Below, piece by piece: positions 1 through 32,764 of a stretch of 35,948 nucleotides of DNA (its first letter is position 1; each line of letters starts with the position of its first letter). A program made the position numbers and the translations under genes. Under the pieces are notes generated by a model. The model searched no databases. It was not told the origin of the DNA and saw only the letters and a list, made by a program, of their open reading frames with translations. The stretch lies in contig JAGDXL010000006.1 in the NCBI GenBank assembly GCA_023256385.1, forward strand, positions 1 to 35,948, in the 5' to 3' direction. The stretch is from Nitrososphaerales archaeon (lineage in GTDB: Archaea; Thermoproteota; Nitrososphaeria; Conexivisphaerales; Conexivisphaeraceae).

Positions 1-45
1 GGAAGCTCCGAGGCTTCAGCTGAGGAGCAGCTCGCCGTTTCGTTT
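1..45 (+). mobile_element. Right-end / C-terminal coding fragment of a TnpB-like (IS200/IS605-type) element, copy 1, truncated by window start
   Basis: Identical over 45 nt to 19226-19270. Two tandem hairpins: GAAGC(TCCGAG)GCTTC and AGCTG(AGGAG)CAGCT. Encodes [15 protein letters not shown] in frame, the same as the C-terminal part of the TnpB-like remnant at 19025. Confidence 0.55.
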
Positions 46-66: not shown

Positions 67-339
67 ATGCCCAAGACAACGGTGGACCTCTCGGTTGAGC
101 TGGGGAATCGGAGGGTCGCGGAATCCATACTCGCGGCGCTTGCGCCTGATAATGTGAACCTGCCGGACGGGATGGAGCTCCATATGCGCGTGGAGTCCAC
201 CAAGCTGCACGTGATAATTTCATGCGACATCGAGCGCGCTGACACGCTTGCCGCGACTGTTGATGAGGTGCTCGGGCACGTGCGCTTGGCACTTGCGGCG
301 GAGTCATCCGTCGGTCATATTCATAATTCAGTCACCTAG
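67..339 (+). CDS. pcc1: KEOPS complex subunit Pcc1 (CTAG/Pcc1 family)
   Basis: 90 aa; VDLSVELGNRRVAESILAALAPDN...LHVIISCDIERADTLAATVDEVLGHVRLA is typical of Pcc1; located next to the S3Ae gene. Confidence 0.8.
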   Translation: MPKTTVDLSVELGNRRVAESILAALAPDNVNLPDGMELHMRVESTKLHVIISCDIERADTLAATVDEVLGHVRLALAAESSVGHIHNSVT

Positions 340-14944: not shown

Positions 14945-15047
14945 GGGCCCGTAGCTCAGCTTGGCAGAGCGTTCGAGCGGGCGCCGCCAGACGTCCGCGA
15001 CGAGGCTGATAACCGAAAGGCCGTGGGTTCGAATCCCACCGGGCCCA
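14945..15047 (+). tRNA. tRNA-Ile (GAU) with a 29-nt intron (14976-15004) in the 5' anticodon stem (30/31)
   Basis: Acceptor GGGCCCG/CGGGCCC, D-arm GCTC/GAGC, T-arm GTGGG TTCGAAT CCCAC, discriminator A. Removing the intron restores TTCGG-CTGATAA-CCGAA. BHB: CGUU/GACG central helix with bulges CG|A and AG|G. Confidence 0.92.
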
Positions 15048-18825: not shown

Positions 18826-19002
18826 GGCATCGATCGCCGCATACCTTCCTCATAAACTTCATGGAATACCAGATCACACCGAGTAGCCGCATCCTCATGG
18901 GACGAATTAGCAGCGATTTTATGAAGAATAGTGGATTTTGGGAAAAGCAGTAGCAGTAAAACTTCGAACCTTCAGGAGGAGATGCACGGACTCCCTCTAG
19001 GG

Positions 19003-19297
19003 CTTTATAAATGGATGTGAGTATGTGACGTCTATACCCACCGTGGGACTGAAGTTCCGCGCGTACGCAGATGGCGCGACTGAGGGGCGCTCAGGGCCCT
19101 GCTGGACTGTGAATCGTGACTACAACGTCCTGCGGTCGGCGCACAGGGCGGGAGCCGCCCGCAGTGCCCGTGGAGCTTCGCCCTCTACCATTCCCAACGG
19201 AGTGGCAAGGCGGGGCTATGAGCCGGGAAGCTCCGAGGCTTCAGCTGAGGAGCAGCTCGCCGTTTCGTTTACTGCTGGCGACGGCACTACGCTGTAG
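19003..19297 (+). pseudogene. Decayed C-terminal remnant of a TnpB-like (IS200/IS605 OrfB) protein, ending in copy 2 of the 45-nt repeat
   Basis: [33 protein letters not shown] resembles the C-x-x-DRDxNAxxNI region of TnpB; followed by [15 protein letters not shown], shared with the fragment at 1-45; TATA-like CTTTATAAATGG at about 19003. Confidence 0.5.
19226..19270 (+). repeat. 45-nt direct repeat copy 2 (identical to 1-45), putative TnpB element right end / omegaRNA-scaffold-like hairpins
   Basis: GGAAGCTCCGAGGCTTCAGCTGAGGAGCAGCTCGCCGTTTCGTTT in both places; identity stops exactly after CGTTT. Confidence 0.9.
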
Positions 19298-32667: not shown

Positions 32668-32764
32668 GCCGGGGTGCCCGAGTGGTCAAGGGGCAGGCCT
32701 GGAGTCGATTGGACCGAGAGCCTGTGGGCGAAAGCCCTCGTGGGTTCGAATCCCACCCCCGGCG
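32668..32764 (+). tRNA. tRNA-Ser with long variable arm and 14-nt anticodon-loop intron; anticodon GGA (canonical 37/38 intron) or CGA (alternative splice)
   Basis: GCCGGGG/CCCCGGC acceptor, G discriminator, CAGGC/GCCTG anticodon stem with 21-nt loop CTGGAGTCGATTGGACCGAGA, V-arm GGGC-GAAA-GCCC, T-arm GTGGG TTCGAAT CCCAC. Confidence 0.88.

Follow-up and report, generated by a model that had tools for sequence, protein, structure and literature searches.

A 45-nt direct repeat in the 35,948-nt stretch of archaeal DNA analysed here (the window) is very probably the right-hand end of an IS200/IS605-type TnpB element from archaea. Judged from sequence, it would comprise the last codons of tnpB, the stop region and the 3′ end of an omegaRNA scaffold (...GAGGAGYAGCTCAC), with host sequence, the presumptive guide, directly after it. 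The class, IS200/IS605-type TnpB/omegaRNA, is already known; the one odd feature of the present elements is that certain copies share the start of their guides.

The repeat and the boundary of the element

The 45-mer has exactly two matches in the window, at positions 1-45 and 19226-19270, both on the + strand and without mismatches, and none of 100 shuffles gave a match (0 expected). Exact search and shuffles thus confirm the perfect repeat described in the initial annotation, including the change after CGTTT to GGGCCG at one place and ACTGCT at the other. Base 1 of the window is base 1 of contig C16 in a 560-kb genome that is 55% complete (G000), so the left side of the first copy is absent from the contig and not from nature. 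Several contig ends of this genome overlap by exactly 55 nt (C2/C31, C10/C20, C21/C10 and C28/C21), which suggests assembly from a k=55 de Bruijn graph; TnpB-related repeats sit at some of the breaks. Elsewhere in the window, Rfam tRNA matches at 14945-15047 (103 nt) and 32668-32764 (97 nt), which exceed the 71-position model and were missed by ARAGORN, are probably intron-containing archaeal tRNAs.

Genome-wide, the 33-mer GGAAGCTCCGAGGCTTCAGCTGAGGAGCAGCTC and its close variants occur about 12 times in G000, and alignment of these right-end (RE) copies reveals a common right end, GGGGCAATGAGCCGGGAAGCTCCGAGGCTTCAGCTGAGGAGYAGCTCAC, followed by divergence. The closed genome of a congener (G001; 1,593,902 bp, ~95% nucleotide identity to G000 around pcc1) carries the RE in at least nine places, eight listed and one further copy at tRNA-Leu, and the listed copies finish in TAGCTCAC before unrelated sequence begins. 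Divergence sets in directly after ...AGCTCAC in the listed G001 copies and in most G000 copies; at window base 35 the scaffold ends in CTCGC, a variant of the consensus CTCAC. Because the other copies part at this point, base 35 is the last of the conserved element, and since none of the genome's RE copies outside the two in the window continues into GCCGTTTCGTTT, the 45-mer resolves into a 35-nt element end and 10 shared flank bases. The scaffold/guide boundary had originally been placed after CGTTT, a position that we reject on the same grounds and because these 10 bases, CGTTTCGTTT, are native at an empty site in G001.

That empty site lies upstream of the G001 orthologue of a gene at 67..339 (+) that is presumably pcc1-like and would encode a KEOPS subunit (94% identity between the two). 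In G000, the gene is adjoined by a longer tnpB element of which the contig start leaves only the RE, that is, the tnpB 3′ end and omegaRNA scaffold end (1..35, +, delimited by the genome-wide RE alignments), with the target-derived flank CGTTTCGTTT in guide position (36..45, +). The corresponding G001 region has no element and reads ...AAGTTTAT immediately followed by CGTTTCGTTTGAGCC, TTTAT there directly preceding CGTTTCGTTT, and it is exactly CGTTTCGTTT that the RE of the G000 copy abuts. The TTTAT-CGTTTCGTTT site at G001 pcc1 is unique within one mismatch, and a search for TTATCGTTTCGTTT gives a single G001 hit, at pcc1, and none in G000. The empty site and the abutting RE therefore fix the RE boundary and identify TTTAT as the insertion motif. 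In several other copies (N)TTAT stands six bases before a conserved left-end TTAGG, and the one empty site shows insertion directly behind a short AT-rich motif, with no duplication of the target.

The left side of the same insertion appears at the end of contig C3, which passes from the G001-syntenic pcc1 left flank through a remnant of another repeat into TnpB residues 1-43, where the contig stops; this tnpB 5′ part lacks the deletion found in the MITE-like copies described below. Because the C3 end combines the pcc1 left flank with a tnpB 5′ part, C3 and C16 would flank one longer, left-truncated tnpB element, and synteny with G001 suggests that the two contigs are neighbours. The left end is truncated by the other repeat sequence, so the TAM of the pcc1 copy is deduced from G001 only. 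We also considered C16:1-45 as a chimera with the second window copy and rejected it, given the tnpB 5′ part at the C3 end and the junction predicted by the empty G001 site.

The second copy is a MITE-like, internally deleted tnpB element of 338 nt (18923..19260, +) that keeps the left end, putative promoter, TnpB N-terminal remnant, C-terminal tail and RE, with ~1 kb of tnpB missing. It begins directly after TTTAT (18918..18922, +), the presumed TAM or insertion motif, which also precedes the insertion point of the empty pcc1 site. A TATA-like box, TTTATAAAT (19004..19012, +), is a putative promoter element; it recurs ahead of the intact tnpB of G001 and in several further copies. Further along are a remnant for TnpB residues 369-403 (19137..19241, +; 89% identical to G001 TnpB) and a predicted omegaRNA scaffold (19172..19260, +) built from a GAGCT...AGCTC closing helix, a covarying upstream stem and a 3′ interrupted hairpin. 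The RE (19226..19260, +) is identical to 1-35, and CGTTTCGTTT again occupies the guide position (19261..19270, +), in common with the pcc1 copy. The element lies upstream of an RNA-methyltransferase-like gene, presumably a SPOUT methyltransferase.

Several G000 copies have this MITE-like form, with an internal deletion, both ends kept and no intact tnpB. Non-autonomous IS200/IS605 derivatives likewise combine internal deletion with retention of both ends, but the present copies have in addition retained the TATA-like box and the predicted omegaRNA scaffold in full, and the literature searched yielded no earlier description of IS200/IS605 deletions that keep promoter and scaffold. Searches for an empty SPOUT site met 284 nt of other, partly repetitive sequence in G001 and a locus too diverged to tell in another genome, G002. 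The 284 nt in G001 (C1:284418-284701) follow the same TTTTAT, and part of them resembles another G000 repeat family (C21 end, C10); one site may have been used by two different repeats.

TnpB genes and the predicted scaffold RNA

Apart from the N-terminal remnant of the MITE-like copy, the window itself holds of TnpB only a C-terminal remnant and the RE. G001, however, encodes an intact, uninterrupted TnpB of 403 aa from the presumed Met (C1:1047495-1048703), the TAG stop codon of which sits in the RE hairpin loop with the rest of the RE directly after it. Among PDB entries this protein matches ISDra2 TnpB (8h1j, E 2e-31), and its top match is 9yyg, a TnpB-like designed nuclease, with which GIDVGI, VMEDID and ADRDYNAALNI align at the catalytic D/E/D motifs and the zinc ribbon also lines up. 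Homologues in G002 and G016 have PF01385 and PF07282 domains and the same RE layout; those in G002 keep the layout with different stem sequences, and an intact tnpB is present there too. OrfB_IS605 and zinc-ribbon domains together with the RuvC D/E/D residues were found in both G001 and G002. Farther away among archaea, in G016 and in MAGs labelled Thermoplasma and Micrarchaeota, tnpB genes or tnpB-like tails likewise finish in this RE. Overall, the scaffold region overlaps the tnpB 3′ end, has a conserved terminus and is followed by variable sequence. The initial annotation had proposed just such an overlapping right end and had suggested asking whether full-length tnpB copies finish in the repeat; the intact G001 gene finishes in the corresponding RE.

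The 55%-complete G000 yielded no intact TnpB of the family with the CTCAC RE. Around C20:28583-28777, that genome also has a TnpB of a separate family, a 502-aa open frame with another C-terminal tail. The same RE also occurs in MAG contigs L127 and L128, labelled Micrarchaeota and Thermoplasma; the TnpB fragment and RE flank of L127 match contig L129 of G016, so transfer or mis-binning is possible.

The RNA minimum-energy fold of the RE is one interrupted hairpin, GCUCC-GA-GGC(UUCA)GCU-GA-GGAGC. Over 25 variants, 92.9% of its cells are paired, with modest covariation, versus 85.5% for the two small hairpins drawn in the initial annotation, which are therefore disfavoured by comparative counts as well as by RNA energy; single-stranded DNA parameters do recover the second of them as an alternative fold. 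In the predicted fold of the last ~90 nt of 13 copies, the GAGCT/AGCTC closing helix, the upstream stem and the 3′ hairpin form a structured scaffold in which compensatory changes support six pairs, five in the upstream stem and one in the 3′ hairpin. Hairpin energies relative to shuffles are not extreme (z -0.5 to -2.6). No Rfam family matched the repeat at threshold. The sub-threshold match to an archaeal sot RNA (sot0042, RF02656), confined to the G002 copy, resembles our case in being a sense-overlapping RNA, but its 17.4 bits are far under the gathering score of 88.

Among characterized systems, the Sulfolobus TnpB7 elements have an RE ending in TTCAC, a guide directly after it and the TAM TTTAA (PMC11043419). 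SisTnpB7 (Sulfolobus islandicus, IS605-type) is likewise an archaeal TnpB with a conserved RE at the tnpB 3′ end and the guide directly after; that RE measures 38/39 nt, with the TTCAC end and a TTTAA-like TAM (PMC11043419). In contrast, the present RE ends in CTCAC, the motif is (N)TTAT, most copies are MITE-like deletions, and the family is known from sequence. ISDra2 TnpB uses a right-end RNA with a ~16-nt flank guide and its element inserts 3′ of an AT-rich pentamer (PMC8612924); the G001 protein is homologous and insertion again follows an AT-rich pentamer, but ISDra2 differs in its TAM, TTGAT, and in having a tnpA partner, none of which was found in the present genus. That absence of Y1 TnpA is the one point in favour of a rival reading, in which the repeat is an IS607-type end (serine recombinase) or some regulatory or structural RNA without relation to TnpB. 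This reading is very improbable given that the tnpB overlap, the CTCAC RE motif and the TTTAT insertion site fit IS605-type TnpB elements, that Rfam offers no family at threshold, and that the intact G001 tnpB ending in the RE already largely refutes it.

Shared bases at the guide position

The initial annotation had expected the two window loci to combine the same scaffold with different guides. Different sequences do follow the RE across loci, but the expectation fails for this particular pair because the first 10 guide-position bases, CGTTTCGTTT, are identical. When guide prefixes were compared among 22 copies in three genomes, other non-orthologous pairs shared 0-3 bases, with one exception: the copies at tRNA-Leu and ubiD in G000 share 15 (GCGTACTTGC), and through this the ubiD copy shares 6 with the G001 tRNA-Leu copy. 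The shuffle test and this distribution led us to reject mere chance as the source of the two identical 45-mers.

Each pair consists of one longer, damaged tnpB copy and one MITE. The pcc1 (tnpB) and SPOUT (MITE) copies lie ~19 kb apart in G000, and the copy at the presumed ubiD gene (tnpB) and that at tRNA-Leu (MITE, C21) correspond to G001 sites ~6.5 kb apart. The tRNA-Leu MITE is the older of its pair, since G001 has the orthologous copy in the same flanking sequence; the G001 ubiD site has no element and matches only from CGGGC on. A 5.3-kb inversion has distributed the ubiD tnpB over C28:16558-16778, the end of C28 and, apparently, the start of C21, which on our own reading of the C21 sequence carries the other part. 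The inversion itself separates the congeners (G000 C28:16421-22171 and C21:1-100 versus G001:C1:1552269-1557984) and appears to break tnpB, leaving residues ~96-172 at one breakpoint and the RE with, apparently, the zinc-ribbon part at the other.

The most likely source of the shared guide starts, in our tentative view, is recombination or template switching at the RE. While the RE hairpin was being repaired or replicated, one of the copies would have picked up the RE with a few bases of flank from a copy nearby, microhomology then allowing it to rejoin its own site. The proximity of the members of both pairs favours this account, as do the 5-nt CGGGC at which the ubiD copy joins its native flank and the inversion that split a tnpB in the ubiD/tRNA-Leu region. 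Against it, no intermediate is seen, and the ancestral SPOUT site is masked in G001 by the partly repetitive sequence described above. Moreover, G001 has the pcc1 flank in its native state, which leaves a single member of the pcc1/SPOUT pair to be explained.

An assembly or library effect, in which the shared flank stems from a chimeric join or a graph fork where contigs end, is possible but less probable, and mainly concerns the second pair. In its favour, each pair has a member located at a contig end, the contigs behave like those of a k=55 de Bruijn graph, and several of their ends share exactly 55 nt; because the C28 end does so with C21, the C28 join is a graph fork, real or chimeric. 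Even so, a 55-mer fork still requires read-supported bases, the start of C16 shares 45 nt and not 55, and the pcc1 copy is exactly what the tnpB 5′ part at the C3 end and the empty G001 site predict.

There is an outside chance that insertion was linked to the guide, a MITE-derived guide having led TnpB to cut at a TAM with a partial match, where the tnpB element was then placed during repair, so that two loci came to carry one guide. The 10 guide bases of the SPOUT MITE do match the unique TTTAT-CGTTTCGTTT site at pcc1, tnpB-occupied in G000, and the composition of each pair and the greater age of the tRNA-Leu MITE would fit. However, the pairs number only two, the native G001 ubiD sequence after TTTAT (ATGTCGAAGGTCGGGC) mismatches the guide in the seed, and in Sulfolobus full 15-nt matching is needed on weak TAMs (PMC11043419).

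Proposed working and mobility

If the element works as ISDra2 TnpB (PMC8612924) and Sulfolobus TnpB (PMC11043419) do, transcription across the RE would yield an RNA with a scaffold that binds TnpB, and the first ~16 nt past CTCAC would match the original target and act as guide. TnpB would then cut empty sites bearing (N)TTAT and the target, 15-21 bp away, and repair would restore the element. MITE-like copies, with promoter and scaffold kept, could supply guides in trans to TnpB made elsewhere.

Y1 TnpA (PF01797) was absent from G000, the closed G001, G002 and G003, and present in the more distant G012, G014, G016 and G019. TnpB-only elements are known, and a missing TnpA bears on autonomy rather than on membership of the TnpB class. 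Since neither Y1 TnpA in the genus nor an undamaged tnpB of this family in the partial G000 was found, these elements may by now have largely lost their mobility here, and present mobility is doubtful. We consider it improbable that the MITE-like copies are free-standing guide-RNA genes for TnpB made elsewhere, whose guides steer where full tnpB copies establish and so leave tnpB/MITE pairs with the same scaffold and a 10-15-nt guide in common.

Overall, these findings add this archaeal genus to the known range of TnpB/omegaRNA elements and supply a defined RE (CTCAC), an (N)TTAT motif, an empty site and a closed congener encoding an intact TnpB, which together make the guide and TAM predictions directly testable. 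Should guides be able to act in trans and affect where elements insert, the multi-copy deletions retaining promoter and scaffold would gain importance, as would the two tnpB/MITE pairs whose guides start alike.
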